Part shown: positions 31,004 to 59,593 of the stretch, piece after piece
Numbering within the stretch: the first letter of the stretch is position 1
Layout: the number at the start of each line of letters is the position of its first letter
From: Siphonodentalium dalli
Taxonomy: Eukaryota > Mollusca > Scaphopoda > Gadilida > Siphonodentaliidae
DNA length: 64,000 nt
Assembly (NCBI GenBank): GCA_032622095.1
Contig: CP136062.1
Location: 197,787,887-197,851,886, forward strand
Direction: 5' to 3'
The notes under the pieces: generated by a model
Database searches by the model: none
What the model was told of the DNA's origin: nothing
The model's input: only the letters and a program-made list of their open reading frames with translations
Position numbers and translations under genes: made by a program

Positions 31004-31005
31004 TA

Positions 31006-31857: not shown

Positions 31858-31859
31858 TA

Positions 31860-32341: not shown

Positions 32342-32689
32342 ACGAAAGAAACAACACACAGGAAAAAAGATCACACAACTAGAAACCAGGAAAAAAACAC
32401 AACAAATGACATATATTTAATCTGATAATCTGAAACACTGTGGAGAGGCATGCCTAGCCGATTGATTGAGTCAGGTCGACTAATCACCCTTTTGTAAGAG
32501 CTGTATGACCAAAGAGGATCATGAAGATCGATTCCTCACGTTATGCGACCGCCCTAGTATCCACATGACTCATACACCGCACCTCACGGGATGTACCTCA
32601 CGGCAAACAGAGTGCCACATCGGGGGATTCTTACCCCTCGATGTGGGGCGGTAAGCCTATTCTACACCGGGACCACACAGAGTATGACA

Positions 32690-33080
32690 TTCAGTACTCA
32701 CCCTCTCTTAATTGGTATTGAGGATGCATCCCCTCTGTTAACTGGTGTTCGGTATTCGCCCCTGTTAACTTGTATTCATGGTTCACTCCGCTGTTCACTC
32801 ATATTCATGATTCACCCCTACCTTAACTGATACTTCGGGATCCGATCTCCTATATATTATCTGGTATTCAGGATACATCCCCTCTGTTAACTGGTATTCG
32901 TCATTCACCCCATATTTTAATAGGTATTCAGTTTTCACCCTCTGCATGTTAATTGGTATTCGAGATTCACCCCCACTCATTTAACTTGTATTCAGGATTC
33001 ACCCCCACTCATTTAACTTGTATTCAGGATTCATCCCCACTCATTTAACTTGTATTCAGGTTCACAAACTATGTTAACTG
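32690..33080. repeat. ~30-bp minisatellite in the left arm
   Basis: Degenerate units of CCCTCTGTTAACTGGTATTC with a GATTCAC stretch. Three cleaner copies of CCCACTCATTTAACTTGTAT lie at 32970-33060. The same array appears in reverse at 58910-59250. Confidence 0.8.
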
Positions 33081-33103
33081 GTATTCAGAAGAATCCCTAT
33101 ATC

Positions 33104-34490
33104 ATAAGGCCTGTTTTATACGACGTGTAATACACGTGTAACGTTAACTCGTCGTCAACACGACTTTTTAACGTTTGATTTATATGACGTGTTAACTTTA
33201 CACGTGTAATCTAGACTGGCGTCATGTAATTAATGTTAAAAATCCAACCGGCTATAAGAAAATGTGAAATATCCCAGATGTATCGGTCTCACTGATAACT
33301 CTCCGCCGAGACAAGAATATAGTTATGTAATGCCACACGGCGACCACGCGAAATTATAATTGATGACCGCCGCCGCTGATTCTTACATCTAGATTTCAGT
33401 TCAGCCCGACCAAAACAAGTTGTCATAACTCTTCTGCGCACGTGCGATCGCCCTGGGGCTCAAAATGGGGTGAAATATTATGCCATATTGTGTTCCGTTA
33501 CTCGTGTCATACCCGTCGTATAAATTGACGAACAAGTGATGAGTTACGCGTCCAGGCCAGTCCACAGGCGCTTGTGAATTTTTTTTTATATATATACTAT
33601 ATACATAGAAGGCCTGACAATCTGATGGCAAGATTGAGCAGCCATTGTTGATTCGGCCGTGTAGGAGTTAATGTGCACCGATTTTGTTCGGGTAAATGGC
33701 AAAATGTTTTATGACTTACGTTAAAAAACACATTAGTATACGAAATGTGCTACCTTGTGCCCTCTCTGCTTGAATTTTACAATATTTGGTATTACTAACT
33801 GTTGACAACGATAAAACATTGCACCTTGATCGGGAATCCATCCGTATTTCATCTTGAACCCGCAGTGAATTATTGATGTTCACCGATTGGCCGAGCTATT
33901 TCTGGATTATTTGCGGGAAATTTGAACTTACTTCCTGGTTGCAACTTCGAGCGTCCATATTTGACAGCATGTCGTTTTGTGTATCAACAAAAGTCATGTG
34001 ACATACGGAAAAAAAATAAAGAGGTATTTTTTTATTTCAACCAATCAGCGGCCAGCTACAATTCACTGTGAATATACGGACAAAATATTGACTTGTCACT
34101 TATATAAAATCATCTAAGATATCAAATACATACACTTTTGATTGGAATAAGGAAATAAGCAACATATGCAGTGGTAATCGCATATTGTACTGCATGTATA
34201 CGTAAGTTATTGTATATTTAGCCGTTTACCCGAATTAAATCGGTGCAGATTAACCCCCGCCGGCCAAGGCGGCAAACCAAATTTAAATTTGGCCGCCAGA
34301 ATGGCATACCTTTCTTTTTTTATAGTAAGTAATAAAATATTTGTTACATGTACCTGTGGGCCAGTCGTGTAATACGTCGACACGTGTAAGGACGAATTTC
34401 GACGAGTATCGTGGTTTTATACGACGTGTAATACACGATCAATTGCCGACTCTCTTATTTCACCAGGAAAATAGCCAGTTATACACGTGT
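33104..34490. mobile_element. 1387-bp insertion private to the left arm
   Basis: The right arm reads straight from CCCTATATC to CTAATTGACAG, while the left arm has 1387 bp between them. Near its ends the insert carries several ACGTGTAATACACG-type motifs (33115-33215 and 34360-34440). It contains the TTAA element at 33668-34253. No coding sequence was found, and neither clear terminal inverted repeats nor a target duplication was seen. Confidence 0.7.
33668..34253. mobile_element. TTAA-flanked MITE with ~38-bp inverted ends
   Basis: TTAA (33668-33671 and 34250-34253) flanks TGTGCACCGATTTTGTTCGG and its mirror CCGAATTAAATCGGTGCAGA. It is a piggyBac-like target choice but a different end sequence from the CCCTTTACCC family. 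The 578-bp body is non-coding. Confidence 0.7.
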
Positions 34491-34504
34491 CTAATTGACA
34501 GTCC

Positions 34505-34830
34505 GTATTCACCCTATGTTATCTAGTATCTAGTATTCACCCCTGTGTTAGCTGGTATTCAGTATTCACCCTTCTGATAACTGATATTAAGTATTGACCC
34601 CTCTGTTAACTGATGTTAAGTATTGACCCCTCTGTTAACTGATTTTAAGTATTTACCACCTCTGTTAACTGATGTTAATTATTCACCCCCTCTGTTAAGT
34701 GATATTAAATATTCACCACCCTATGTTAACTGATGTTAAGTATTCACCCCCAGAGGGGTCAATACTTAATATCAGTTATCAGAAGGGTGAATATTAAATA
34801 TTCACCCCCTCTGTTAACTGGTATTCAGTA
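34505..34830. repeat. Minisatellite, second block of the left arm
   Basis: Units such as CCCCTCTGTTAACTGATGTT with AAGTATT. One stretch at 34755-34790 is inverted relative to its neighbours. Reverse copy at 58120-58385. Confidence 0.8.
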
Positions 34831-34839
34831 TTTATGGAG

Positions 34840-37561
34840 CAACACCCTCCATGACAGTAGAATTCCTACATTTGATAAATAGGTGGACACGTACTTTGCA
34901 AAAAACTGATTTTCCAGAATCCTCGTTAACGTTTTTATTTCTCAGATGCGAAACGAGTTTATAATCCAGTGACGGTTTGAAACATGAACTTGTGCTCCTT
35001 TTTGTTTCATACGGACATTATGTGGTAGAGACAGATTTATTTACGCCATAGAGTTACATGGTCTATTTCCAGCTGATTGTTCCATATTTGAATGGACACG
35101 CCTGCATAGCAACATGTGTGTTCATTGGGTTGTCTTTATTGTGATATATGGCTGTATGATGTTATATTATGCAATTAAACATTGCTGACCTAACGGACCG
35201 AAACAGAAATGATATTTCAACCTGTCAAATGTACTAACATAATTGTTTTTAAGTTTGTTTTCTACATTGTTCTAATTGTTCAGATTTTATGTACAATCAA
35301 TATAAGGATATTGAAATTCAACAGTGTTCGCCGGATAGATCCAGAAGACTTATGTGTTGAAAATGTCTTGCATTTTGTGTCTCGAATTATTGGAAACGCG
35401 TGTCTGGCCCTTATACATGCGATTTTAAATATGAAGATACAAAGTATCAAAATTTATCGATAGAGAGTTCTATAAATATGTTATACGAAGTTTAGTTGCC
35501 GTAGAAATACTTATTCAAGTCATAGAAATTTTTCTTCGGCAAGAATAAAAAATTCGTTCCTTGTAGGTCTATTCGTTGTTCGTTGCAAAAGAAATCTGCA
35601 AGATCGCCATGACGATATATATGGTTATAATACACCAAATACAAATTAGTAGAGTGACTTCTCATGGGACCCCAAGCTAGGATCAGCATAAAAACAATCC
35701 TGGCAGCTGAATTGTCAATGACAGATGGATGAAAAGTGCACGAAAAAATTCACAAACGTGTTTCCCGACGAGAAACATCAAATATAGCCACATAGTGAAC
35801 GGTTACGGCTGTCAAATTGCTGAATAATTTATGGGAGGGGTTGGTGTTTTTTTTCGATGTCATTTTTTCTCCATTTTAAGGGTAGTGTGACGCAGTACGT
35901 TGACAAGTACTTTTGGACACATTTTCGTGTGTTTAAAATGACGTTCTTCAATTTTTGATACTCATGCAGAGTCAAATCTGTCCTGCGAATACAGGCCAGC
36001 GGGATTTGTTAACACTGAGGCCTATGCAAATCATTTGGTGTTTGTAACCATATGATGCAACGATATTTGATCCCAACTATAGACTATATGTGTAGCATCA
36101 TGCTTATGTAGGATGTAACCTGATTCCCTGCATGTCACATCGAATCCATATTTGCTGATGTACCCTTGAAGCAGACACAATGGCACCAAGGTTGTCTTTT
36201 GAACGTGTCTTTTTGCGACGATTGGAGTATAGTTTCACTTGCACTTGAAAGATATGATAACATACAGTCTAATTTGTCAGCCAAGGAACATTAAGCGCAA
36301 ATACAACTTGAGTGCGCGGGCGGCTATTTACGGCCTTGCCAGTCTACACGGTACACATGTGCTAGATCATGACATGAATCTCGACTCTGGCAAACGCCCG
36401 TAGAGATCATATTCCACCAGTACATAAAATCTTTGAACTTTTTGAAGTTTTGACAGGGAACCTTATAAAGTTGAGAAAAAAATAATGCAGAAAAGCATAC
36501 AATTTAAAGTTCACCTTCAGCGAAGTACATTATTAAGGAACATGCAGATAATAACTAAGAAATATATTCCCCGCGTTATTTTATCAACTTCATATCATAA
36601 GGTTCCCTGTCAAAACTTAAAAATTTCCAAGGTTTTGTACTGGTGTGATGTGATCTCTACGGACGTTAGCCTATCTCAGTGTAGTTTCGTGGCATGATCT
36701 ACAACTGTGCGTGTTATAGTACCCGCGTAAGAAGCCATGTATAAATCGTACGTACCGTTGTATAGGCTTACTCGACAGTACTCGTCCAAGTATAGCTTAC
36801 TAGTGTTATATACATGTAGTACTGAGTTAGACTTGGGCTGGAGGTCGGGGAATGGCAGACTATACACGAGCGTGAGTGTTTAGCGAGCAGCGGATCACTG
36901 GATTATATTGAGGTGTTTTCGGCATTGATGTCTCGCACCGAGCATGTATATTTATTTCTGCGATCCACAAGTCGGATTACGCACATGCATGTATCGAGCC
37001 AAATTTGATATGTTTTGGCTTTCGAAAGTTGGCGATGATGTAGGGTGACCACAAGCGGCTTTATCTCCGTCCGATGAGTACCCCATACTAACCGGTATAA
37101 TATAATGAGTTCCCAAATTATGGACTTGTTCCGGTACGTGAAACTGGTAAGTTAGTATTCAGGCACCATGCCAACTGGGAGAATGTAGCATTCCAACATC
37201 ATAGCCGAAAATGTGAAGCAAATTGACCGTACCACTCCAAAGAAAACATCGTCCGAACTACGCTCAAATGTAAATATTTACGTCTAGATTCGGGACGTAA
37301 CTATCGGCGATAAACTTACGAAAATGATTTCGCCATCGAAAGTCTCTGGATTTCATTAATATATAAGTATGATGGCGTGTGTTGTCAAATTAATATTTGT
37401 AAAATATAACCTCTTTGAGGAAGATTATTCACCATTTCTATGTGGTCACCCTACTGGAGTGTTTCATATCACTTTAATAATAAAGGCGCAAACAATTCGA
37501 AAGGCTCCGGTGCTAAAATGATACAGATTCAGACACAAATAGGCGATTGGGTGAGGATGTT
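34840..37561. other. Left-arm body, non-coding
   Basis: Matches 55700-58110 in reverse. It includes an internal inverted pair (36395-36465 with 36598-36670, AAGGTTCCCTGTCAAAACTT). A weak frame at 35209-35463 and its diverged partner in the other arm (57166-57468, minus) share FNSVRRIDP and ENVLHF but do not agree in frame elsewhere. No conserved protein is claimed. Confidence 0.45.
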
Positions 37562-39112
37562 GGAGTTTGATAAGTTTATTATGCCTTAGCTGCAAATCAA
37601 TACAGAACATAAGTGCATTAGTACATGAACAAAACATATTTACATATATATAATACAAATAGATATATACAAGAAGTGACCCCCGATTTGCCTATATTAT
37701 ATTATTTGTTTGTTTGTTTGTTTGTCTTTTTGGCCACGCTCATTCGCCTTTTGTGGTGTCAAATAAAATGCCGTCCGATTTAGTCAATTTTGTCAAGCTG
37801 GGTTTTCCCCTTTGCATGAAGCTGTATCCTGTATATTTAGCATCGATTGTGTGTATTACATGGGGTAATTTCTTAGCGATAACTTTAGAAAAACACATAC
37901 TTTCTTAAGGAGGCTCATATTTTCCACTGTTACTAGCCCACAAAATTTTGTCAGGTTAGGCGACTCCCAGTAGTACGTAGGTATATATTTAGCCCTCAGA
38001 GTTTGAAATTCTTTACAAATTAACACATGGTGGTATTCATCTCCTAATCCTTCCCTACATGCCCTGCATATTCTTTTCTCTTTAACCTGGTCATGCCATC
38101 GTCCTGACTCTATAGATAGTCTGTGGTTAGCTGTTCTAATCTTAACAAGATACTCAGATAATGTTCGCGGTAACTCAGTGAGGTATTTGCTAAAATTCAA
38201 TTTTGGTTTAATTTGTCGATATAGTAAACCCCGAGATGAATTCCCTATTTCAATTCGCCAACTGTCTTCAAACTGTTCAATCAAAACTGTTTTAACTTTC
38301 CTTATTTCCGATTTCGACAAGGGTGTTTGTGCGGTGAATGTTTCACTTAAACCACTTTCATTCATTATACATCTAATATTTTCTATCCATCTTATCTTTC
38401 CCGCGAATGAATCTGTGTCACTGCATGCGAACACAAGTTTATATATGTCTTTCGCTAATATAGACCCCTCTTGTGAAACTAACTTAGACCAATAAGAAAT
38501 ATTTCTGCATTTAATACCAATATTCATCGGGTATCTCCCCAACTCACCATAAACCATATAACTTGGCGTGCTTGATTTCATTCCCAGTAATATTTTACAG
38601 AATTTCAAGTGAACATATTCTATGTCTTTGATTAGTTCGAATCCCCACACTTCGCTCCCATATAACAAAATTGGAGCGATTTTATGTTCGAAGAGTATCA
38701 GCATGATATCAATTGGGAGGTCTAATTTTCTGGTCTTATCAAAAAGGCCGTACATGGCTTTTATCGCAACCTCTTTATTTCTTTTTATGGCTCTACAGAA
38801 CCGACCATTAAAAAAGAACTTCACTCCTAGATAATTAAATTCCTTGACGGTTTCAAGGACATTTTCATTGAAGGAGAATTTTGGTGGATTTTTTGGGAAT
38901 TGTTTGCAGAATATAGTAACTTTAGATTTATTAATATTGACATGTAATTTCCATGCTTCTGAATAATCTTCAAATGCCCGGAGTGCGCGTGTCATATCTC
39001 CTTCATTTTCTGTGAGTATTACAGTATCATCGGCGTATAACAAGCATAATAATTTTACATAGCACCCTATGTTTTTTAACATAATTTCATCCAAATATTT
39101 AAGGCTATTTAT
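37562..39112 (-). mobile_element. 5'-truncated non-LTR retrotransposon insertion
   Basis: The insertion is absent from the right arm, where GAGGATGTT-ACATGTATGC is continuous at ~55690-55707. A TGTT duplication (37558-37561 and 39113-39116) fits target-primed insertion. On the minus strand the element holds the 3' part of a reverse transcriptase frame and a 3'-untranslated region. AATAAA lies near its extreme 3' end (around 37576-37582), and a (CAAA)n tract is at ~37708-37727. Confidence 0.85.
37856..39112 (-). pseudogene. LINE reverse transcriptase, C-terminal part (5' truncated)
   Basis: About 412 codons remain open to a natural stop. The start is the truncation point, not a real initiator. 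Near residue 20 is LLYADDTVIL, the catalytic YxDD palm motif of reverse transcriptases, followed by the LHVNINKSKV helix and FNYLGVKF, as in LINE RTs. The middle section (LLYGSEVWGFE, LKFCKILLGMKSSTP, VYGELGRYP) is the typical post-RT region. The end carries a cysteine-histidine knuckle (CRACREGLGDEYHHVLIC). The fingers and most of the palm, and any endonuclease or ORF1, are missing, so it is inactive, though the remainder lacks stops. Recent insertion is inferred from the intact frame and the empty site in the other arm. Confidence 0.9.
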
Positions 39113-39518
39113 TGTTACATGTGTGCATAAGTGGTTCGCACGTGTCCTTTAATCCCATTGACAACTTGTATCGTAATACGTATTGGCAATAACTATGTTT
39201 AAGCGATATAGAATGAATAAAAACACCCAGCATCGAAGGGAACAACTAATATACAATATATACAAGTCTAGGCAAAAAGTTATGAACGAATCTTCGCTCG
39301 TAGCTTTGCAGTCTTATATATAAATGAGGCTAAAAATGCAAGAACTAGTTGTATGCCGCTTTTGTGCTCCGCTACCCTGTCCCGAGTCGTATACAACTGT
39401 AAAAAGACACATATACCCGGCAGTCGTATAACTCGTAAGTTCATAGTATTAATTTGGTTGTACAATTGGGAATAGCGGCTAATTTCGTACAAGTACAACT
39501 GCCCAGAGCTTTATATCG

Positions 39519-39611
39519 CAGGTCCCCAGAACAAAAATTGACCCCACCCCAATAGTACTTATTCCTATTAAGTACTATTGGGGTGGTGTCAAATTTTTTT
39601 CTGGGGACCTG
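39519..39611. repeat. 93-bp foldback, left-arm copy
   Basis: CAGGTCCCCAGAACAAAAAT..CACCCCAATAGTACTTA pairs with TAAGTACTATTGGGGTG..CTGGGGACCTG. Its partner in the right arm is 55201-55293. Confidence 0.75.
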
Positions 39612-40465
39612 CTCTTTATATCACATGGTCCTGGTCGGCTATGGATTTGGCTATGGACCTATCAGTTAAAAACTCTTCTCAGTCTCAATGTTTTAATTGC
39701 TCAGCAAGTACGACGTCGTGACCATTCTCAGATACAGTAAATTATTGATGGGTGGGTTTCTTTCTAAATGAGAACACTTATGAAATATCCTGAATCAAGA
39801 AAAACTAAGTGTCCTATCATGACCTTCGGATATGATACATGTATTACGGCTATATAAACTGCTCTTTTTGAAAAAAGTTCTAGTTTACAGAAGTTCTTCA
39901 AAAGTTGGCACCTGAAAATAGCAAAATTTTAAATATTGCTCATGCCATAATAGTATTGCACACGGGGTTATAATTATCAACGATTTGATGGTTCCTAAAT
40001 ATTGAATCACAATAATTGCCTGTACCAAATTTCAAAATACTTACAAACAGATTTTTAGAAAATTATCTTCATTGATAATAACAGTTATTATGAAAACACC
40101 AATATACAATACATTATTAAGCTTGCACATATCTTGTTCTTATTTATCCCTAATTGGGTACAATAACTGCGAGAATAAAGAGATTTTGATTGTAAAAGCA
40201 TAAACTTCAAACTTCGGTCGCTATTGAATACCGACGGTCAGCTGATTCAAATGGTCGCCGGACGTTTTCGTTGTGCTGCCAAAACTGGGCCCTGTACATA
40301 AACTGCACTTGTATACAACTTCTGAATGCGCGGGATGGCTACTTACGGGCGTGTGAGTCTAGCGTCTAGGGCCCTGTTTAAGGGTTAAAATTCCGTTCAA
40401 ATTACACGTTCGATCTATATTAAACTACCAAGATGTAGACACCCACGGTCACGTTATATATGATA

Positions 40466-41150
40466 CTAGCAGGTTAGCCCGCCACTGGCGTGGTTCGTCT
40501 CATGGCTTTGCAATTGCAACAGCTTCCGAGACACGTATGCTCTGTTCGAAAAAGCAATTGCAACAGCTTCCGAGACACGTATGCTGCACCTAGGTGTAAA
40601 ATTTCGTCGAAATCCGCCAGTTTTACCAGATTTGACCTTGAATTTATCATTTTCAAGGTCAAGGTCAGATCGGGGTCACAATTTAACCCGTCCATGACAC
40701 TTTCTGCACACAAGTAGCCCTAGGTAGCAAGTTTGAGCTCAATCGGTTCGAGTCTATAAAGGACACAGACATATATATCATGTGTGGGTATATACCCGTT
40801 TCAAGGTGAAGATTACATCAGGCGGAAAAAGTGACCCGATGAAAATCTCCCCCGTTCCTAGGAAGCCCTTAGTACGTAAGAATCACACAACACGCTCATG
40901 TCTGGATACAGTCATGCTCACGCCCGGACCCAGACGTAACAATTACATTACACGCATACGCTCTTTATCAACGACACTGTGGATACGAACGCTCTTTAAC
41001 TATCAACGCGATTAAACCCACAGTGCCGTTTTGTGTGACTGGGAGTGAAGAACGGGTGCTCGGAGCTTCTCCAAAATGCCGCGACGACCATTCCCGCGAG
41101 TTTTTACCATTAGATGGGAAGTTTGGTCTCGATCGGTGCAGCCGTTTTCG

Positions 41151-41157
<7 letters not shown>
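40466..41157 (-). mobile_element. Helitron-like element, family H3, left-arm copy
   Basis: On the minus strand it ends CTAG at 40469-40466 followed by T, preceded by the hairpin CGCCAGTGGCG and GGCTAACCTG. The 5' part (AGAATCGAAAACGGCTGCAC) merges with (TA)n, so the 5' end is not resolved. It contains one GACCTTGACCTTGAAAATG module as in H1. The same insertion with the same flank (GTGACCGTGGGTGTCTACA) is in the right arm, so it predates the duplication. Confidence 0.65.

Positions 41158-41204
<47 letters not shown>
41158..41204. repeat. (TA)n microsatellite at the inner end of the left arm
   Basis: Pure TA tract between the H3 copy and the next Helitron. Arm homology ends here. Confidence 0.95.
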
Positions 41205-41205
<1 letters not shown>

Positions 41206-41644
41206 TAGCCGATGAGCCCGACGTTGTCCGGGCTATTCTAAAACCAAATTTCAAGTCGTTAGCTCTACCCAGCCCGACGTTGTCCGGGCTATTAAAAAAA
41301 CAAATTTCAAGTCGATAGCTCTACCCGTTTCCGAGATCTGGTCTGTGCATGCGCGAAGCGGGCGTCGCACGGGCTCGGCGACCCGATAAAATTCGTACTC
41401 GGGGCAAGATACATTCACATACCAAATTTCAAGTCGATAGCTCCACCCGTTTCCGAGATCTCGTCTGCGCATGCGCTGCACGGGCGTCGCACGGGCTCGC
41501 CAATACGACAACGACCACCGCCTGGTCAAACTACACACACATACCAAGTTTCGTCCCGATCGGTCGAGAATCGTAGATTTGTATTAATGACAGACAAACA
41601 GACAGACAAACAGACAGACAGAGGTCTTCAAAATATATATGAGA
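41205..41644 (-). mobile_element. Non-autonomous Helitron H2 (array D, copy 1)
   Basis: On the minus strand it starts TCTCATATATATTTTGAAG at 41644 and ends CTAG at 41208-41205. The terminal hairpin segment is duplicated (41215-41235 and 41272-41293). Confidence 0.85.
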
Positions 41645-41655
41645 TATATATAATA

Positions 41656-42201
41656 CTAGCCGATGAGCCCGACGTTGTCCGGGCTATTCAAATTTCAAGT
41701 CAATAGCTCCACCCATTTGCGAGATCTGGTCTGCGCATGCGATAGCTCTACCCGTTTCCCAGATCTGGTCTGCGCATGCGCGAAGCTGGTGTCGCACGGG
41801 CTCGGTGACCCGATAAAATTCGTATCCGGGGCAAGATACATTCACATAGCAAATTTCAAGTCGATAGCTCCACCCGTTTCCGAGATCTGGTCTGCGCATG
41901 CGCGAAGCTGGCGTCGCACGGGCTCGGCGATGCGATAGAATTCGTATCCGGGGCAAGATACATTCACATAGCAAATTTCAAGTCGATAGCTCCACCCGTT
42001 TCCGAGATCTCGTCTGCGCATGCGCGAAGCGGGCGCCGCACGGGCTCGCCAATACGACAACGTTCACCGCCCGGTCAAACTACACACACGTACCAAGTTT
42101 CGTCCCGATCGGTCGAGAATCGTAGATTTGTATAAATGACAGACAAACAAACAAACAAACAAACATACATACAGACAGAGGTCTTCAAAATATATATGAG
42201 A
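41656..42201 (-). mobile_element. Non-autonomous Helitron H2 (array D, copy 2)
   Basis: CTAG 3' end at 41659-41656 and 5' TC at 42201. It has ~2.5 units plus a scrambled partial unit at 41690-41745. An 11-bp AT spacer separates it from copy 1. Confidence 0.85.
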
Positions 42202-42651
42202 CTAGCCGATGAGCCCGACGTTGTCCGGGCTATTCAAAAACAAAATTTCAAGTAGATAGCTCTACCCGTTTCCGAGATCTGGTCTGCGCATGCGCGAAGC
42301 TGGCGTCGCACGGACTCGGCGACCCGATAAAATTCGTATCGGGGGCAAGATACATTCACATAGCAAATTTCAAGTCGATAGCTCCACCCGTTTCCGAGAT
42401 CTCGTCTGCGCATGCGCGAAGCTGGTGTCGCACGGGCTCGGCGACCCGATAAAATTCGTATCGGGGGCAAGATACATTCACATAGCAAATTTCAAGTCGA
42501 TAGCTCCACCCGTTTCCGAGATCTCGTCTGCGCATGCGCGAAGCGGGCGCCGCACGGGCTCGCCAATACGACAACGTTCACCGCCTGGTCAAACTACACA
42601 CACGTACCAAGTTTCGTCCCGATCGGTCGAGAATCGTAGATTTGTATTAAT

Positions 42652-42687
<36 letters not shown>

Positions 42688-42727
42688 AACAAACATACAG
42701 ACAGAGGTCTTCAAAATATATATGAGA
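42202..42727 (-). mobile_element. Non-autonomous Helitron H2 (array D, copy 3)
   Basis: Its CTAG (42205-42202) directly abuts the 5' TC of copy 2. The 5' end TCTCATATATATTTTGAAG is at 42727 and preceded by A. (CTGT)/(TTGT) run next to the 5' end. Confidence 0.85.
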
Positions 42728-43055
42728 TATATACACATACACACATATATATATATTTATATACGAAGTCTCAAAATATATAGTAGATGTAGTGGTACAC
42801 CTATAATCTCTATATCTCTTATGTACTTTCGGGATTGTGCTCATTTTGTTCCAGGAACCTGTGACCAAAAGCGATTTTGTCTCCGTCCGATGAGTACGCC
42901 ATAATAACTTATATAGTTATAATGGAATGAGTTCCCACATTATTTTCAGCGTGTATAAATGAGATCTGGAGAGGGTGTTATGCATAAGTGGCTGGCACGC
43001 ATCATCCAATCCCAATACCAACTTGTATCATAATACGCATTGGTAGTCAATATGT

Positions 43056-43430
43056 TTAACCCTTTACCCAACAAACCGGCCAAAAACGGCCAAATAAAGC
43101 TGCAACAGCCTAAATTATCTTGGGTCTGTCTCAATAAAACCATACAAATATGGATATCATTGGAACCGGCTCATTAACCACATTGTGATGGTTACAGTTA
43201 TGCCCTGTGCCAATGCATTCTCTTATATATGCGAGTCGACCATAGGTCGCCTCGCATATATAAGAGAATGCATTGGCCTAAAAAAAAAATTCTTACATTC
43301 TTTAACAATTTTATAATTTTTAATGTGTTAAGCCAATGCATTCTCTTAAATATGCGAGGCGACCTATGGTCGACTCGCATATATAAGAGAATGCATTGGC
43401 ACAGGACCGTTCTGTTGGCTAAAGGGTTAA
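43056..43430 (-). mobile_element. piggyBac-type MITE (PB4) at a provable TTAA site
   Basis: TTAA (43056-43059 and 43427-43430) flanks the 367-bp element, reversed relative to 5310-5709, with one substitution in the right TIR (TGTTGGCTAAAGGG). The uninterrupted related sequence at ~39200 reads ATGT-TTAA-GCGATATAG, so a single TTAA was duplicated on insertion. Confidence 0.9.
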
Positions 43431-43565
43431 ACGATATAATGAATAAAACATCCAGTATCGAAGTAAACATCTGATATACAAGTGTAGGCAAAACAGTATC
43501 CGAACGAATCTTCGCTCGTCGCTTTGCAGACGTAATCGAGGCTAAAAAATACAAGGACGCTGTGG

Positions 43566-43872
43566 TTGTATGCCGTTGCAGTATTCAGAATTCCTCGTGT
43601 CCCGAGTTGTACACAACTGCTGTAAAAAAAAGACACCTGTACCCGACATTCGTATACATAACTCGTACGTATGCCGTTGCAGTATTCACAATTCCTCGTG
43701 TCCCGAGTTGTACACAACTGCTGTAAAAAAAGACACCTGTACCCGACAGTCGTATACATAACTCGTGCGTATGCCGTTGCAGTATTCAGAATTCCTCGTG
43801 TCCCGAGTTGTACACAACTGCTGTAAAAAAAAGACACCTGTACCCGACAGTCGTATATAAATAACTCGTACG
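43566..43872. repeat. ~106-bp tandem repeat, three units
   Basis: Each unit holds GCCGTTGCAGTATTCA, CTCGTGTCCCGAGTTGTACA and ACACCTGTACCCGACA. The single-copy form is at 39355-39440 and 55375-55460, so the amplification is private to the third copy. Confidence 0.85.
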
Positions 43873-43990
43873 TTCACAGTATATATACATTTGGATGCGC
43901 ACTTGGGAATGGCGGCACATTTCCTACAAGTACAACTGCCCAGAGCTTTCTACAGTACAAGGTCCTGGTTAATGTCATTCCCAATTCATA

Positions 43991-44269
43991 TGTTAACTTC
44001 AAACTTGTAGCAAGCGCGATAACTCTATGCATATAACCGTACGCATGAAAACTAAATAATAAAGGTCAGTACAACTAAACAAGGTTTATAACATGAGTGA
44101 TATTGATATACCAAGCTATAACTAGTAACCTCAGGGCCGTCGCTATATGGTTTCAATGGTGATGCACGTTTTGGATTTTACAAATCATCACCCCATGCAT
44201 GATTTGCTCAAAAATGGAGGCAAGATGTTACACCTGACAATTGTAACATTCGTCGATATGTTTTAAAGA
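43991..44269. other. Intergenic DNA
   Basis: No gene or repeat was recognised. Confidence 0.35.
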
Positions 44270-49129: not shown

Positions 49130-50700
49130 AGACGTCACCCGGAAGATCCATATGAAGTTTGGTGACGACCGGATGATAGATGTAGCCAATAGGGCGTACC
49201 GAAGGAATGAGTCACGTGAAGAGCAAAGTCCAAGATGGCTACCGGTGGCCATGTTTTTGATAGATATTCGTTAAAATTCAATAGCGCCCATCTAGATGTG
49301 ATCATAAACATGCCTGTAAATTTTAGAAACATTTATCAAATAAAAATGGGCTTCATGTAGGCCGATAGATTCAAATATAAGATACAAGATTGCCGCTAAC
49401 GGTCAAATGTTTCTACGAAACACGTAAACGAGAGAAAGGTGATGATTTTAATTTAATTTTAGTTTTGGCTCAATACATTAGATTTGTTTACAAGTTGGTA
49501 TAATAATGCTGTTTTCGTTGTTCTGTGCAATTCAATGTCCAACAAATAGGGATCAGAGGTCACCCAGAAGAGCCATATGGAGTTTTTGGGGATGAACAGG
49601 ATGAAAAACGTAGTCTGTACGGCGTCCGGAAGCATTTCGCCATGCATAGAATAAAATTCAAGATGTGTGTCAGCGGCTATGTTTTCATCAATAACTCTGG
49701 AAATTCAACAGCTGCCATCTAGAGGCGATACTAAACGTACCACGAATATTTAAAAAATATATTTCTCCTACAAATCTGGACTGCTCAGGGGGGGGGGGGG
49801 GGTGAAACAAAATTTTCCGGCACATATGCCGGGGTGGGTGGGTGGTCAAAGCCACCAACAAGCAATTTTTTCCGCAACTAAAAAACAAATTTCATGCTTG
49901 TTTTTTAGTGTTTTGGCAATGAGTTGGGCTTCAAAACCACTTTGAATGAGAGAAATAATGTAATTCTAACTGTAAACTGACTGCAGGCAGTTATCGTGTT
50001 GTATTTTGTTGCAAATTTTGAAATCCAAGATGGCCGCTGTCAGCCATGTTTTTTTGGCCGAATGACCTCAAAATGACTCATTCCTATTTACATGTCCATG
50101 TTAACATCCATGATAAATAGTATGCACAGAAATTCATATACAGCTGTTTACAGTGAATTTCCCCCCGCAAATCTCTGTTTTAGTGTTAAAAGGGGGGGGG
50201 GTGTCAAAAAATGGTCGGAAAAAACTGCCGAAAACGGAAACAAATTTGGCGGTGGGGGTGGGTGGGTACAAAAAATGATCGAAAGGGAAAAAATGCCATA
50301 CGTGCCTGAAAATTTTTTCCGACCCCCCCCCCCCCCCTGGACTGCTTGGAAACAATTGACGGCTCTCATCTTGATGTCACCTCGGAGGTCCAATGAAGTT
50401 TGGTGAGGATCTGAGGAGGGATGTGGCATGTAAAGTGTGCTAAAGTTTTAGTCTAGCTGCCATGATTTCACGAAATTCTGAAAAATATTGATGACTTCCA
50501 TTTAGTGGTCACCCCGCGATGATCCATATGAAGTTTGCATGGTGACGATCGAATGAGGGATGTGGCATGTGGGGTGTGCCGGAATGAAGTTTAGTGACGA
50601 CCGAATGAGGGATGTGGCCTGTAGCATGTGCCGAAATGAAGATTCGTGACGATCGGGTGAGGGATGCGGCCCGTATACCGTGTTCTGAGGGAAACGTGCG
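49130..50700. repeat. Cluster of AAGATGGC / GGCCATGTTTTT dispersed repeats
   Basis: Diverged copies at ~49130-49335, 49545-49735, 50020-50060, 50370-50450 and 50500-50690 share GTCACCCGGAAGATCCATAT, AAGTTTGGTGACGA, GGGATGTGGC, TGCCGAA, CAAGATGGC, GGCCATGTTTTT and TAGCGCCCATCTAG. Two G/C-homopolymer foldbacks (49788-49870 and 50160-50338) sit between copies. Another copy is at 61020-61320. Confidence 0.7.
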
Positions 50701-50816
50701 TATACGTCCGTCCGTGCGTCCGTCAACAGTTTCCCTCATGCAGCAACACATGGCAATAGCTCGAACTTTACTTTGTCAAGTTGAGCAAAAAACAAATCTG
50801 TTCGATGTCAGGTTTT

Positions 50817-51480
50817 TATACGCCCGTTTGAACAAAACGGTCGTATTATGTAAATGGGTTGTCCGTCCGTCGTCCGTCATCCGTCACTGTCCGCTTTTGG
50901 TTTCCGGATGATAACTTTAGATTGAATCGAGTGAACTGAACCAAATTTGGTTTGTTTGACCTGCCGGCTCCCGGGCGAACCCGCTCGCGTCGGTTTCCGG
51001 CGCCGGGGCAGTCGTTCGCCCGCGGGGCGGTTTACCTCGACGCAGATCAAGTTCGAATATGGGTTTCGTCCGCATTATTTTGACTGAGTTATGCCCCTTT
51101 TTCGACTTAGAATTTACCTGATTTGCGATTTCCGGATGATAACTTTAGATTGAATCGAGTGAACTGAACCAAATCTGTTATATATACATATCAAGTTCAA
51201 ATATGGGTCCTGTCTACATGATTTTGCAGGTCAAGTTTGAATTTGAGTCCGATCCGACCATATTTGCCAGAGGTATAGGATTGTTTTGTCTGAAAATAGC
51301 CGAAAATAAATATTTTAAATTGTGTTTTCGGTTTTTAGTCAAAATTACCACACTTGAAGTTATTGAGTTTTATTTTTGTTACTATTTCGTCTTAAGTCAA
51401 AGGTTTCAAACAAAACCTTGCCCCACTCTACTCCAGAAACGGGCGTATTATGCCACCCCCCGACGGCGTGCACTTGTTTT
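50817..51480. repeat. Dispersed repeat with (CCGT)n and CGTATTATG ends
   Basis: It starts with a hairpin ATACGCCCGTTT..AAACGGTCGTAT, then GTCCGTCCGTCGTCCGTC. TTTCCGGATGATAACTTTAG is duplicated at 50909 and 51127. It ends AAACGGGCGTATTATGCC near 51455. No coding content; a MITE or similar non-autonomous element is likely. A GC-rich stretch at 50960-51030 stands out. Confidence 0.5.
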
Positions 51481-51785
51481 GGCTGTTTTCGAGATGAGTT
51501 CGCGGGATAACTCATTAGTTTAGTAACTTGCTGATATCTTTAAAACATATGGACTTCCGGTATGACACGTGAGCGGTAAGGACGTTTTTTGGACCACGAG
51601 CTCCGGAAAAACATCATTTCAAATGATTGAAACGCAAACCAGCGTATACAAACAGATAACTAATGTCGGAAAATAGTCAAGAACATTAGTCAAGTCGGCA
51701 GTATTTCGAGACGACTAGTAAATACGAGCAGTTAGCTAATTTTAAAACGAACTCACGAAAATAGGTGACAAGAATCGGGGTGAAA

Positions 51786-52602
51786 ATGGGAACGAGACGA
51801 AACCAAACCGAAAAGAATAAGGACAAAGACAAGGAAAAAGACAAGGAAAACATGTACCAATGTAAGTCATTTGAGGACATTACCAAGTGCTTCCAAAATC
51901 CTCATACTTCAATCATTGGGCAAATAGGTGAAGTTGAAATCAAGGTGGAAAATCTGACTAAAAAGGTGATTGACATTGAAAAAGTAACCGATGAATCGAC
52001 AAAGCGAGTCTCCAAAATTGAAGACAGGATGGAGGAATATGAACAACGTTTCGCTGAAATAGAATCGACATACGAGCAGAAACTTACTGAAATGGAAAAT
52101 AAACTGAGTGAAACTAAAATTTCAGACGAATTGGTTGAAGATAAACTACAAGAATTAGATAATTCATTGACAAAGCTAGACCTGTGGGGACGCAAATGGA
52201 ACGTTATAGTTAAAGGTGTTATTGGTAGCAAACACGAATTAACATCAGAAACTTTAAAATTAGTGTTGTCATCCTTCAAAAAATCTCTCAGAATTTCAAC
52301 AAATCGAGTAGAAGAGATGTCAGGTTTTGCGGCTTGTCATAGACTGCCTTCAGGTAAACCAGATACCCCAGATATAATAATAAGATTCTTGAATCTCGAC
52401 GATAGAGACTTAGTGCTGGAAGCAGCTAAAAAAAACTCAAAGCGGGGACAGGATATGGCATATCGGTTGACCTGCCACCAAACATTGGGAAACTTCGTTC
52501 ACAACTTTTAAAACAAAGAAGTGAACTGCCTGATGACGAGAAGAAAAAAACGAAACTAATGTACCTCAAGAAACAACCAAGGCTTATCTTAAACTGGGAA
52601 TA
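51786..52602 (+). pseudogene. LINE ORF1-like protein (coiled coil plus RRM-like domain), frameshifted
   Basis: The likely start is the ATG giving MGTRRNQTEKNKDK. A Lys/Asp/Glu-rich N-terminus is followed by a long coiled coil (about residues 45-130: VENLTKKVIDIEK, EYEQRFAEIE, VEDKLQELD). Then comes an RRM-like core as in L1/Tx1 ORF1 proteins (LDLWGRKWNVIVKGV, FAACHRLPSG, DIIIRFLNLDDRDLVLEAA). Around 52470 the frame shifts. The continuation in another frame (DLPPNIGKLRSQLLKQRSEL ... PRLILNWE) reaches a TAA at 52600-52602, matching the expected ORF1 C-terminal domain. ORF1 proteins bind the element's RNA as trimers; this copy is broken. No ORF2 follows within 1 kb. Confidence 0.8.
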
Positions 52603-53300
52603 AAATGACTTCAGTGAAATGACTTTTGTAGTTTGTTATATTTCTCCACATACAGGTTCATGTTAATGGGAAAGGTTTATTACACATTACATTTTTTCTT
52701 TTCATTTTGTTTTGAACAGTCAAGACAAAAGAATACTTTAAATAGGGTCTGCTGGATGTGGAGAAGAGGGGCCGGAACCACGGCAATATATGTACTAAGA
52801 AAAATAATTTATTTATAACAAATCTGACATTGGTGTGCAGAAGTGATGAAAAGATTAACAAAGACCTTGGTCTAAATATTGCACAAAAACTGAATTTACC
52901 TTTACATATATCTCAGGATTTTGAATTTTAAATGTTGATATTGAGTAAGCGGTTTTAATTAGAAGATATAACCCATAATCAGTCTTCGTCATGCAAACAT
53001 ATTCCCAAATTAACAGTATTTATCACAATAAAACCAGGTCCCCCTAATGTCGGTCTGTAACACTGTCAGATATACACTACCGATAATTTAATTGCATATA
53101 TCTATTAAAATATTCATTCCGCGCAAAACTATCGACAGTTGGTGAATAATAGTGTCACAGAGATCACACATGACAGGAAAAATATATAAATTTGCATGTT
53201 AAATTCACTTAAAAAACACGCTAAACATTAGGGGGACACACAAAAAGTCGCCCTAATGTAAAAGTCGCCCTAATGTGGGTTATTTACACACAAATGTCTC
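52603..53300. other. Non-coding DNA with a small inverted-end element
   Basis: GTCCCCCTAATGT (53039) and ACATTAGGGGGAC (53226) form inverted ends of a ~200-bp unit. Three further CCCTAATGT motifs follow to 53310. Confidence 0.5.
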
Positions 53301-53318
53301 CCTAATGTGGCTTCCGCG

Positions 53319-53319
<1 letters not shown>

Positions 53320-53379
<60 letters not shown>

Positions 53380-54073: not shown

Positions 54074-55200
54074 TATCATATATAACGTGACCGTGGGTGT
54101 CTACACCTTGGTAGTTTAATATAGACCGAACGTGTAATTTGAACGGAATTTTAACCCTGAAACAGGGCCCTAGACGCTAGACTCACAAGCCCGTAAGTAG
54201 CCATCCCACACACTCAGAAGTTGTATACAAGTGCAGTTTATGTACAGGGCCCAGTTTTGGCAGCACAACGAAAACGTCCGGCGACCATTTGAATCAGCTG
54301 ACCGTCGGTATTCAATAGCGACCGAAGTTTGAATTTTATGCTTTTACAATCAAAATCTCTTTATTCTCGCAGTTATTGTACCCAATTAGGGATAAATAAG
54401 AACAAGATATTTGCAAGCTTTATAATGTATTTTATTACATATCTATCAACGTAATTCGCATGATTGCACGAGTTTCCAGGCGTGTGATAATTCTCAGAAT
54501 CGCACTAGTGCAATCTGTCGACGGAACTATTTCATTCAGTGTTAAAACTCAATTAAATTCACATTTTCTGTACCGGAGATGTACGATTGTGAGTCAATTT
54601 ACTATGATACGGAGATATGTAATAAAAATAGAACCGCATGAGTGTCTGGATTTTGACGTAATTATCGCACGAGATTTGTTGGCGGAGCGATACCTCGAGT
54701 GCGGGACGCAATATACATGCGGTTCTATCTATGTATATTGGTGTTTTCATAATAACTGTTATTATCAATGAAGATAATTTTCTAAAAATCTGTTTGTAAG
54801 TATTTTGAAATTTGGTACAGGCAATTATTGTGATTCAATATTTAGGAACCATCAAATCGTTGATAATTATAACCCCGTGTGCAATACTATTATGGCATGA
54901 GCAATATTTAAAATTTTGCTATTTTCAGGTGCCAACTTTTGAAGAACTTCTGTAAACTAGAACTTTTTTCAAAAAGAGCAGTTTATATAGCCGTAATACA
55001 TGTATCATATCCGAAGGTCATGAGAGGACACTTAGTGGGTGTTCTCATTTAGAAAGAAACCCACCCATCAATAATTTACTGTATCTGAGAATGGTCATGT
55101 CGTACTTGCTGAGCAATTAAAACATTGAGACTGAGAAGAGTTTTAACTGATAGGTCCATAGCCAAATCCATAGCCGACCAGGACCATGTGATATAAAGCG

Positions 55201-55293
55201 CAGGTCCACAGAACAAAAATTTACACCACCCCAATAGTACTTAATAGGAATAAGTACTATTGGGGTGGGGTCAATTTTTGTTCTGGGGACCTG
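55201..55293. repeat. 93-bp foldback, right-arm copy
   Basis: Partner of 39519-39611 with a few substitutions. Confidence 0.75.
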
Positions 55294-58119
55294 TGATATA
55301 AAGCTCTGGGCAGTTGTACTTGTACGAAATTAGCCGCTATTCCCAATTGTACAACCAAATTAATACTATGAACTTACGAGTTATACGACTGCCGGGTATA
55401 TGTGTCTTTTTACAGTTGTATACGACTCGGGACAGGGGTAGCGGAGTACAAAAGCGGCATACAACTAGTTCTTGCATTTTTAGCCTCATTTATATATAAG
55501 ACTGCAAAGCTACGAGCGAAGATTCGTTCATAACTTTTTGCCTAGACTTGTATATATTGTATATTAGTTGTTCACTTCGATGCTGGGTGTTTTTATTCAT
55601 TCTATATCGCTTAAACATAGTTATTGCCAATACGTATTACGATACAAGTTGTCAATGGGATTAAAGGACACGTGCGAACCACTTATGCATACATGTAACA
55701 TCCTCACCCAATCACCTATTTGTGTCTGAATCTGTATCATTTTAGCACCGGAGCCTTTCGAATTGTTTGCGCCTTTATTATTAAAGTGATATGAAACACT
55801 CCAGTAGGGTGACCACATATAAATGGTGAATAATCTTCCTCAAAGAGGTTATATTTTACAAATATTAATTTGACAACACACACCATCATTCTTATATATT
55901 AATGAAATCCAGAAACTCTCGATCATTTTCGTAAGTTTATCGCCGATAGTTACGTCCCGAATCTAGACGTAAATATTTACATTTGAGCGTAGTTCGGACG
56001 ATGTTTTCTTTGGAGTGGTACGGTCAATTTGCTTCACATTTTCGGCTATGATGTTGGAATGCTACATTCTCCCAGTTGGAATGGTGCCTGAATACTAACT
56101 TACCAGTTTCATATACCGGAACAAGTCCATAGTTTGGGAACCCATTATATTATACCGGTTAGTATGGCGTACTCATCGGACGGAGATAAAGTCGCTTGTG
56201 GTCACCCTACATCATCGCCAACTTTCGAAAGCCAAAACATATCAAATTTGGCTCGATACATGCATGTGCGTAATTCGACTTGTGGATCGGAGAAATAAAT
56301 ATACATGCTCGGTGCGAGACATCGATGCCGAAAACACCTCAATATAATCTAGTGATCCGCGGTTAGCTAAACACTCACGCTCGTGTATAGTCTGCAATTC
56401 CCCGACCCCGAGTCCAAGTCTAACTCAGTACTACATGTATATAACACTAGTAAGCTATACCTGGACGGGTATTGTCGAGTAAGCCTATACAGCGGTACGT
56501 ACGATTTATACATGGCTTCTTATATACGCGGGTACTATAACATGCCACGAAACTCCACTGATGTAGGCTAACGTCCGTAGAGATCACATTACACCAGTAC
56601 AAAACCGTGGACATTTTTGAAGTTTTGACAGGGAACCTTATGATATGATGTTGAAAAAATAACGCGGGGACTATATTTCTTAGTTATTATCTGTTCCTTA
56701 ATAACGTACTAAGGTGAACTCGAAATTGTTTTTTCGACTTTATAAGGTTTCCTGTCAAAACTTCGAAAAAGTTCCAAGGTTTTGTGTACTCGGGTGGAAT
56801 ATGATCTCTAAGGGCGTTAGCCAGAGTCGAGATTCATGGCATGATCTAGCACAGGTGTACCGTGTATATTGGCAAGCCCATAAATAGCCGCCCGCGCACT
56901 CAAGTTGTATTTGCGCTGCGTGTTCCTTGGCTGACAAATTAGACTGTATGTTATCATATCTTTCAAGTGCAAGTGAAACTATACTACAATCGTCGCAAAA
57001 AGACACGTTCAAAAGACAACCTTGGCGTCATTGTGTCTGCTTCAAGGGTACATCAGCAAATATGGATTCGATGTGACATGCAGGGAATCAGGTTACATCC
57101 TAGAGAAGTATAATGCTACACATGTCTATAGTTGGGATCAATACATCGTTGCATCATATATGTAGTCATGGCGATCTTGCAGATTTGTTTTGAAACGAAT
57201 AACGAATGGACCTACAAGGAACGATCTTTTTTTCCTTGCCGAAGAAAACCTTTCTAATTTCTATGACTTGAATAAGTATTTCTACGGCAACTAAACTTCG
57301 TATAAAATATTTACAGAACTCTCTATCGATAAATTTTGATAATTTGTTATTATGGTGTGTAACATAGGAGAGGATATCTTCATATTTCAAATCGCATGTA
57401 ATGGATGTATAAGGGCCAGACACGCGTTTCAATAATTCGAGGCAAAAAATGCAAGACATTTTCAACAAAGAAGTTTTTTGGATCTATCCGGCGAACACTG
57501 TTGAATTTCACATATCCTTATACTGATTGTACATAAAATCTGAACAATTAGAACTATGTAGAAAAAAATTATGTTAGTACATTTGACAGGTTGAAATATA
57601 ATTTCTTTTTTGGCCCGTTAGGTACCCAGACCTCCTAAAATAATTAATAATTTAACAACAATCATGTAGCTCATTGTCTTGACAACGAGATGAGGCTTTA
57701 TTTGAATCATAATAATTACAGCAATGTTTAATTGCATAATATAACATCATACAGCCATATATCACAATAAAGAATAGTGTCTACACATATATCAGCCCAA
57801 TGAACACACATGTTGCTATGCAGACTTGTTCATTCAAATATGGAACAATCAGCTGGAAATAGACCATGTAACTCTATGGCGTAAATAAATCTGTCTATAC
57901 CACATAATCTCCGTATGAAACAAAAAAGAGCATAAGTTCATGTTTCAAACCGTCATTGGACTATAAACTCGTTTCGCATCTGAGAAATTAAAACGTTAAC
58001 GAGGATTCTGGAAAATCATTTTTTTGCAAAGTAGGTGTCCACCTATTTATCTGCGTAAACAGATACACTGAACAAAACCCCGAAAATGTAGGAATTCTAC
58101 TGTCATGGAGGGTGTTGCT

Positions 58120-58385
58120 CCATAAATACTGAATACCAGTTAACAGAGGGGGTGAATACTTAACATCAGTTAACATAGGGTGGTGAATATTTAATATAAC
58201 TTAACAGAGGGGGTGAATACTTAACATCAGTTAACAGAGGTGGTAAATACTTAAAATCAGTTAACAGAGGGGTCAATACTTAACATCAGTTAACAGAGGG
58301 GTCAATACTTAATATCAGTTATCAGAAGGGTGCCAGCTAACACAGGGGTGAATACTAGATACCAGATAACATAGGGTGAATATGG
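58120..58385. repeat. ~30-bp minisatellite, right arm block 1
   Basis: AACATCAGTTAACAGAGGGG units with TAAATACTTA spacers, the reverse of 34505-34830 with fewer units. Confidence 0.8.
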
Positions 58386-58423
58386 ACTGTCAATTAGGAT
58401 ATAGGGATTCTTCTGAATACCAG

Positions 58424-58897
58424 TTAAAGGCACGTGAGGCCTTAATTGTCGAAAATATTCATATTTGTTCCAATCACCGTAAACAGAAAAACATTAAAAC
58501 GCATACAGTTTCGTTCATATATACCATGACCATCGCGTAAACAGCATGTTATCACAAAGACCTACTATATTTTACCTAAGCAAGAGCCTGATTGTGTTAC
58601 AGAAGACAGCACAATGCTACTGGCTAATCACACACAAATGGCATAAACGCTCTTTATTAGTTCCATATCAGGAATTCACCAACAAAGAACGCTCTTTATG
58701 TTTACCATCATAATATAAACAAACACCAGAAAAGTAACTTTTTATACTTTTGTTTACATAACAATGGTCAAACAGATGACAATACCATACTGTTTATGCG
58801 ATATTTCTTATTTGTATACGGACAAAGTCTGTCTACATTTTGACGGGTGTAAATATTTTCACAGGATACCCACCGCCAAGGCCAACCGTACCTTTAA
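58424..58897. mobile_element. TTAA-flanked element private to the right arm
   Basis: TTAA (58424-58427 and 58894-58897) flanks 466 bp with imperfect inverted ends AGGCACGTGAGGCCTT and, from the other side, AGGTACGGTTGGCCTT. The left arm holds the empty site at 33074-33077 (ATG-TTAA-CTGGTATTCAG). No coding content. A similar end occurs near 30958. Confidence 0.85.
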
Positions 58898-58909
58898 CAG
58901 AGTTTGTGA

Positions 58910-59250
58910 ACCTGAATACAAGTTAAATGAGTGAGGGTGAATTCTGAATACCAGTTAACATAGGGGTACATTTTGCCTATCAGTTAACGGAGGGGGTGAA
59001 TCTCGAATACCAATTAACATGCAGATGGTGAAAACTGAATACCTATTAAAATATGGGGTGAATGACGAATACCAGTTAACAGAGGGAATGTATAGGAGAT
59101 CGGAGTACCAGTTAAGACAGGGGTGAATCATGAATATGAGTGAACAGCGGAGTGAACCATGAATACAAGTTAACAGGGGCGAATACCGAATACCAGTTAA
59201 CAGAGGGGATGCATCCTCAATACCAATTAAGAGAGGGGGTGAGTACTGAA
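58910..59250. repeat. ~30-bp minisatellite, right arm block 2
   Basis: Reverse of 32690-33080 (GAATACCAGTTAACAGAGGG units). Confidence 0.8.
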
Positions 59251-59593
59251 TGTCATACTCTGTGTGGTCCCGGTGTAGAATAGGCTTACCGCCCCACAGC
59301 GAGGGGTAATAATCCCCTGACGTGGCACTCTGTTTGCCGTGAGGTATATCCCGTGAGGTGCGGTGTATGAGTGGATACTAGGGCGGTCGTATAACGTGAG
59401 GAATCGATCTTCATGAACCTCTTTGGTCATACAGCTCTTACAAAAGGGTGATTAGTCGACCTGACTCAATCAATCGGCTAGGCATGCCTCTCCACAGTGT
59501 TTCAGATTATCAGATTAAATATATGTCATTTGTTGTGTTTTTTTCCTGGTTTCTAGTTGTGTGATCTTTTTTCCTGTGTGTTGTTTCTTTCGT

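Follow-up and report, generated by a model that had tools for sequence, protein, structure and literature searches.

Three inverted arm pairs in a tandem segmental duplication of Siphonodentalium dalli, with an inverted and shortened spacer in the first

Serial structural variation at segmental duplications in people and apes includes 'Inv + Del' haplotypes (NAHRwhals; PMC11393467). Fold-back inverted duplication has been attributed to annealing at short inverted repeats (PMC10622511), and long inverted repeats of C. elegans are kept alike (PMC1803023). The locus described here lies in a 64,000-nucleotide stretch of the genome of the scaphopod Siphonodentalium dalli (contig C2, CP136062.1, positions 197787887–197851886), which is referred to as the window. 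It consists of two long inverted arms, left (L1) and right (R1), around a 12-kb spacer, and is the first of three such inverted pairs in a tandem segmental duplication with units of ~150 kb, extending over more than 300 kb. The units are numbered 1 to 3 from the window rightward, and their arms L1 and R1 to L3 and R3. This locus and the human and ape case are alike in that repeats within segmental duplications take part and that an inversion followed by a deletion leaves a shortened inverted version beside longer ones. There, however, the versions are alleles in people and apes, whereas here they are paralogous units on one chromosome, and the deletion junction here has only ~2 bp of shared bases. 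The comparison with fold-back duplication would rest on the self-complementary (TA)n that marks both inner ends of the arms; in fold-back duplication the short inverted repeat lies at the centre of the duplicated sequence, whereas here the daughter arm is ~54 kb distant. Arm-to-arm homogenisation is the feature shared with the C. elegans repeats, but at this locus only parts of the arms look homogenised (45 sites distinguish L from R in mid-arm against 2 in the first inner block), and the spacer is large.

Within the window, self-BLAST gives a collinear minus-strand chain between the two arms (Table 1), the best pieces scoring 2159, 1860 and 1622 bits, well beyond chance. In global alignment the larger L1/R1 blocks outside the minisatellite are 92.8–100% identical over aligned bases; the minisatellite occupies 32.85–34.75 kb, and the alignment is ragged there. 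The homology ends abruptly at both ends of both arms. The chain and the alignment confirm the inverted arms that an original prediction had described from the letters of the window. That prediction also regarded the insertions in the arms as private, which holds for the L1 fragment of a long interspersed nuclear element (LINE) and for the Helitron-like element, both absent from unit 2, but not for the insertions at 35624 and 54436, which occur in all three L arms and all three R arms, respectively.

Copies were sought in the window's own assembly (2.2 Gb, 9 contigs). For each query the 40 best candidates were scored, so that copy numbers are those of copies found, and partial or more diverged copies may escape; query parts matching dispersed repeats were excluded before copies were counted. 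An inner-arm query of 2038 bases (39113–41150) gave 88 matches from the best 40 of 9212 candidates. The final 700 bases of this query, from ~1340, belong to a dispersed repeat, with matches mostly 85–93% identical, and were set aside; bases 1–996 have six copies, all on C2, at 197826999(+), 197842618(-), 197936729(+), 197996491(-), 198084533(+) and 198144202(-). A mid-arm query (36050–37557) is present at full length at the same six places and in the same orientations (best 40 of 12095), three plus-strand copies matching at 96–100% and three minus-strand copies at 91%. Its other matches belong to a dispersed stretch (query ~1060–1435) or to an internal inverted repeat. When window 33000–34000 is used as query, the pieces 106–563 and 563–1001 are dispersed, and the match at C2:197933072 corresponds to the adjacent unit. 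The arm copies found, six in all, fall within ~320 kb of this one chromosome (C2:197.82–198.15 Mb) in the order +,-,+,-,+,-, which answers the question, raised with the original prediction, of whether the unit occurs elsewhere in the genome: the copies found are all local.

Positions beyond the window are given as reg, the C2 position minus 197787886, so that reg 1–64000 is the window. Sequence was read directly for 200 kb rightward of the window and for three 10-kb stretches; the 264,000 bases formed by the window and the 200 kb contain no N. The array runs L1-spacer-R1-tail-L2-spacer-R2-tail-L3-spacer-R3-tail. Window 27363–46189 recurs at reg 138120–156179, and 52906–110287 recurs at reg 206789–264000 (the end of the read sequence) with 0.17–1.39% substitutions per 3-kb bin, a range that leaves out the 102-kb bin (1.62%), inflated by tandem cross-matches. 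Together with their left flank, L2 and L3 differ by 0–0.4% in the compared blocks, and so do most parts of the first two tails (T1/T2). The tail-to-L junction is identical ahead of L2 and L3 (left flank of L3 compared with reg 130809–143601), and in the tail of unit 3 a stretch containing a PAN-domain exon is matched at 94% at C2:198179744. The repeated blocks are low-copy, longer than 1 kb and more than 90% identical, without dispersal (six arms and three spacer cores, all local), as in a tandem segmental duplication; order, junctions and the spacing of PAN exon, core and arms repeat from unit to unit, with unit 1 differing by its inverted, shortened spacer. The low-copy inverted arms around a spacer are in turn those of an inverted segmental duplication.

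The spacer measures ~54–56 kb in units 2 and 3, against 12 kb in the window. A core query (46300–48300), bases 1–709 of which are a dispersed repeat, matches at full length three times, in the window (+) and at 197952364(-) and 198099061(-) (best 40 of 17249). A narrower query (47020–48300), in which bases from ~815 are another dispersed repeat, finds the same three copies (best 40 of 12543). Since the core is on the plus strand in the window and on the minus strand in units 2 and 3, the window core is inverted with respect to both others. In unit 2 the pieces of a LINE are ordered on the minus strand as an ORF1-like frame (161593), endonuclease-like pieces, RVT_1 (157360–156449, Pfam, 1.5e-28) and a C-terminal frame; 'ORF1-like', 'endonuclease-like' and 'C-terminal' are labels from reading translations, and the sole Pfam match of the ORF1-like frame is MAD (3.4e-5), below the cut-off. 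The window has a disrupted copy of this LINE, in which the ORF1-like frame (51765–52508, +) and the C-terminal frame (45239–46051, -) run in opposite directions and the middle is missing. Because the unit 2 LINE is unbroken in order across the point at which the window is cut, we take the 12-kb window spacer to be the derived state. Counted on unit 2 after a presumed inversion through A and A', a pair of LINE-derived segments in inverted orientation, ~44 kb has been lost from the window spacer. A query from segment D is matched on the plus strand in unit 2 and again in unit 3, the queried piece being a transposon with other genome-wide copies; all of D compared with the window gives 36 matches, none longer than 514 bp. 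At 158 sites that differ between A and A' in unit 2, the window agrees with A' at 126, with A at 28 and with neither at 4, and past 45.4 kb its distance is 0.38% to A' and 1.27% to A.

The inner ends of both arms lie in perfect (TA)n, as predicted, and segment A' of unit 2 is also bordered by (TA)n, from reg 169803 onward. Helitrons have TC...CTAG ends with a 3' hairpin and insert at A/T without target-site duplication. The element beside the inner end of L1 has such ends and hairpin, read by eye, and an A/T insertion site; in unit 2 its empty site, where 40455–41192 and 42730–43081 abut at reg 152829/152798, lies inside (TA)n, where a target-site duplication would be masked. At the outer end of L1 is a truncated miniature inverted-repeat transposable element (MITE), 94–98% identical to three other window copies, and 38 bases of a fourth lie at 60439–60476. 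The copies are several and carry TTAA and CCCTTT tips, and we take them to be piggyBac-type on the rule of a TTAA target and CCCTTT-like tips. The left outer end had been placed correctly at the break in this MITE, yet the break is not the true boundary of the repeat, and the right arm does not end at 59593 as had been proposed. In unit 2 the L/R homology continues to window 60476 (58894–60476 against reg 145250–143743, 91.9%), while L1 is without reg 143780–144558, the join of this 0.78-kb deletion falling within the MITE. The apparent outer end is therefore a deletion scar of the window's left arm. L3 carries an outer-end deletion of its own, of ~2.2 kb (reg 143601 to about 145872 equivalent). 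Jointly the L copies retain both MITE tips, the outer in the window and the inner in unit 2, where the outer tip is without its last bases, whereas the R copy stops at 60476. The pattern points to L as the parent copy and R as its daughter, provided that the MITE tip was not lost from R at a later stage.

Divergence between L and R differs along the arms. In the mid block (36050–37561; six arms) the three L arms differ consistently from the three R arms at 45 sites, with distances of 3.85–4.27% between L and R, 1.56% between L1 and L2, 0.20% between L2 and L3 and 0.14–0.34% among the R arms. The first inner block (39113–40108; six arms) has 2 L/R-fixed sites and distances of 1.34–1.76% between L and R and 2.39% between L1 and L2; the difference in fixed sites between these two blocks gives a Fisher p of 2.6e-8, sites being treated as independent. 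The second inner block (40455–41150), part of a dispersed repeat family, was compared in five arms, leaving out R3, whose homologue is broken; it has 1 fixed site and L-R distances of 1.01–1.87%. In mid-arm, the inverted duplication is older than the tandem array that encloses it. The low divergence at the inner ends is best read, from these site patterns, as sequence exchange between the arms, for which gene conversion between L and R would be the simplest homogeniser.

These observations are very probably best explained by an inverted segmental duplication followed by tandem duplication, inversion, deletion and exchange between arms, in an order of events that we infer as follows. An ancestral segment L of ~9 kb would have been copied in inverted orientation as R at a distance of ~54 kb. 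The inner breakpoints would have fallen in (TA)n, and the outer one, on the R side, within the MITE that L retains; fold-back or template switching at (TA)n may have given rise to this first copy. A unit of ~150 kb (L, spacer, R and a tail with the PAN exon) would then have been duplicated in tandem to make three units. In the window unit the spacer would have been partly inverted, most simply by recombination of A and A', and then shortened by the ~44-kb deletion; the same unit would have gained the Helitron and the LINE fragment and lost the outer 0.78 kb of L. Meanwhile the L and R arms would have exchanged sequence near their inner ends. The true inverted segmental duplication of the original prediction was thus right but incomplete: there are three pairs in a larger tandem array, the window spacer is inverted and shortened, and the MITE end is a scar. 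As a whole this is a large-scale rearrangement of an ordinary kind, whose general mechanism is known, and it is well resolved.

Several points weigh against this history. The outer block (five arms, minisatellite included, leaving out L3, where it is deleted) has 1 L/R-fixed site yet large distances, 1.86–4.56% between L and R and 5.10% between L1 and L2, so that the picture of exchange is not simple. Leftward of 45.4 kb the window is not clearly nearer to either A or A', and because the left part of A follows neither clearly, the crossover point would be a loose one. Divergence between the spacer cores of units 1 and 2 is patchy (0.1–2.6%), so that the inversion and the recent duplication are not datable by one clock. 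Unit 3 was read for 20 kb around its arms and 10 kb of left flank, the remainder being known from search matches, and L2 and L3, at 0–0.4%, could be two haplotypes of one unit. This last point leads to the improbable alternative that the assembly joined divergent haplotypes, head to head or in tandem. The small L2/L3 differences and most of those between T1 and T2 are within the range of heterozygosity, and insertion differences, such as a 3.1-kb LINE (reg 132525–135666) in unit 2 only as compared with unit 3, fit two haplotypes; units 2 and 3 could in this way be a false tandem copy. For the inverted pair, two haplotypes would make four arm copies, but six are found, in three pairs; the 45 mid-arm differences recur unchanged in each unit; homology is lost abruptly at both ends of both arms, where a head-to-head join of alleles would retain it; the left flank, with its G-protein-coupled receptor gene, is single-locus; and the stretch contains no N. 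A head-to-head mis-join, one of the origins first proposed, is rejected for the pair on its threefold recurrence with the same mid-arm differences. A very large composite or fold-back transposon with the arms as its ends, also among the first proposals, is barely credible. Long inverted arms do surround a spacer rich in pieces of transposable elements, with boundaries at (TA)n and a MITE, but every copy found, six of the arms and three of the core, is local, the arms within a single ~320-kb stretch, the outer end varies (window, 32342; unit 2, 60476/143743), and RVT_1, the sole transposon coding match in the left arm, sits in an insertion that neither L2 nor L3 carries. Copy number and location led to its rejection.

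Other routes to the window spacer can be weighed against recombination of A and A'. The arms themselves are long and inverted and share tracts of low divergence, so that the spacer might have been flipped by recombination between L and R. This would have swapped the inner neighbours of the arms, whereas R1 keeps that of R2 (52906–53333 corresponds to reg 206789–207206), and extra deletions would be needed, unlike on the A/A' route; it is very improbable, and was rejected for the unswapped neighbours. An inverted core adjoining a deletion is a usual signature of fork stalling and template switching or microhomology-mediated break-induced replication (FoSTeS/MMBIR). The window has this arrangement, with ~2 bp shared at the junction, and it is possible, if unlikely, that one replicative template switch produced both the core inversion and the large deletion, and perhaps the tandem duplication too. 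A single event is weakened by the uneven divergence, which is 0.1–0.8% at 44–49 kb, 1.6–2.6% at 49–53 kb and ~0.3% past the junction.

Table 1. Coordinates of features of the inverted arms and spacer in the window
Feature	Position	Strand or orientation	Basis and remarks
Left arm L1, with insertions	32339–41204	+	self-BLAST; matches unit 2 reg 144558–152829
Right arm R1, part matched by L1	53322–59596	-	self-BLAST; matches unit 2 reg 207206–213474
Chain block	32339–33077 / 59596–58894	inverted	self-BLAST
Chain block	34491–35187 / 58397–57719	inverted	self-BLAST
Chain block	35188–35623 / 57623–57155	inverted	self-BLAST
Chain block	36050–37561 / 57159–55697	inverted	self-BLAST
Chain block	39113–40108 / 55700–54732	inverted	self-BLAST
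Chain block	40104–41204 / 54435–53333	inverted	self-BLAST
Truncated TTAA/CCCTTT-tipped MITE, outer end of L1	32237–32342	+	junction of 0.78-kb deletion near 32339–32342
Insertion, also represented in L2 and L3 but in no R arm	35624–36049		alignments
LINE fragment (RVT_1), L1 only, absent from L2 and L3	37562–39112	-	Pfam, alignments
Perfect (TA)n, inner end of L1	41155–41204		sequence read
Helitron-like insertion in (TA)n, carrying a minisatellite; lacking in unit 2	41206–42727	-	ends by eye
Segment A, 3' part of LINE, single in window	42730–46189	-	unit 2 inverted pair reg 152798–156179 and 169803–166587
Spacer core, in opposite orientation to that of units 2 and 3	43669–52923		genome searches, alignments
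Insertion in spacer core, absent from unit 2	49750–50336		alignments
Deletion junction joining unit 2 reg 160441 and 206789	52906–52923		~2 bp microhomology by eye
Perfect (TA)n, inner end of R1	53322–53378		sequence read
Insertion of ~300 bp in R1, R2 and R3, absent from L arms	54436–54731		alignments
Outer part of right arm, MITE at 60076–60476	59597–60476	-	L1 partner deleted; partner in unit 2 reg 143743–144558

The PAN exon of the tail (reg 81632–81913; PAN_1, 1.6e-6, above the Pfam cut-off) has a start that reads as a putative signal peptide, and is found at three places, once per unit and one unit apart (best 40 of 6482). Frames of at least 90 aa number 210, of which 205 are addressable (reg 1–206800). 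Pfam scans covered 10, 10, 116 and 77 frames, partly overlapping; 136 were scanned in the first three runs, and those outside these runs come for the most part from satellites, Helitrons or the sequence left of the array. The 116-frame scan gave five families with one member each, PAN_1, PAN_4 and Fungal_lectin, which are matches of one exon, and RVE6 (0.0057) and Tenui_PVC2 (0.0017), which are weak and not traced to a frame; it included five frames of the R arm or its outer part (54400–54768, 54562–54834, 56758–57027, 57169–57483 and 59648–60076). One 10-frame run held six frames from the window, two of them in shared arm sequence (58958–59377 and 40873–41205), and these two had no Pfam match. 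Pfam matches traced to the scanned arm frames included no host domain. Two frames compared with PDB and one compared with PHROGs were without a match. The left flank carries a rhodopsin-type receptor frame (13123–14430), a single open frame of 436 aa with 7tm_1 (Pfam); its one other match, at 68%, is on C8 (both of 2 candidates scored).

Other repeats lie in and beside the units. The 3.1-kb LINE at reg 132525–135666 lies in the tail that precedes L2 but is missing ahead of L3, and its ends share a repeat of ~16 bases, judged by the overlap of the alignments. It has long open frames of 292 and 638 aa, the former matching Exo_endo_phos_2 below the cut-off, and its absence before L3 suggests that it probably inserted after the last tandem duplication. 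The spacer of unit 2 contains DDE_Tnp_1_7 transposase frames in three pieces (reg 191677–193088, Pfam), possibly related to the local TTAA MITEs, and a tandem array (reg 171212–188959) of ~1–1.5 kb units, mostly 89–95% alike. Portions of the neighbouring stretch (179–182 kb) are ~90% similar to window 58424–58909, which belongs to the R arm.

Outside the window, at C2:197899369–197914333 (reg 111483–126447), is a dispersed transposon of ~15 kb that is almost wholly palindromic, with two ~6.9-kb arms, 99.6–99.7% alike, around 1.1 kb. A 301-base query from its tip gave 40 matches (best 40 of 198), 34 in 17 convergent pairs and 6 single; the pairs are 10.1–17.2 kb long, seven of the 17 measuring between 14.80 and 14.97 kb. 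A query from the middle of its arm (best 40 of 1524) gave mostly +/- pairs at 98–100%. The tips start TGATGATAGG with small variation, and a perfect 6-bp target-site duplication is present in all nine copies with both ends read by eye; an automated test for such duplications, tied to one motif, flagged two of eight fetched pairs. Each arm has one 202-aa frame, with no Pfam match under 0.1 and no match in PDB or PHROGs. The element has the appearance of a non-autonomous transposon of recent origin, its terminal inverted repeats being giant, and is probably of more interest than the inverted duplication. Within the spacer-core insertion of the window, 540 bp (49795–50331) are 96.7% like the centre of this transposon (reg 118706–119244); as the insertion is absent from unit 2, this is probably a small element in its own right.

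Comparison of neighbouring units explains the 'giant inverted repeat' of the window, whose odd ends (the MITE break, the (TA)n beside the Helitron and the 12-kb spacer) are later events with intact counterparts nearby. The locus offers a worked case of serial rearrangement with internal controls, comprising inverted duplication, tandem duplication, inversion, deletion and probable conversion. Rather unlikely is a still-active small amplicon in which the arms are exchanging, the spacers flipping and shrinking, and the PAN-domain gene is variable in copy number. If so, individuals of S. dalli would differ in the number of units and in the orientation of their spacers.

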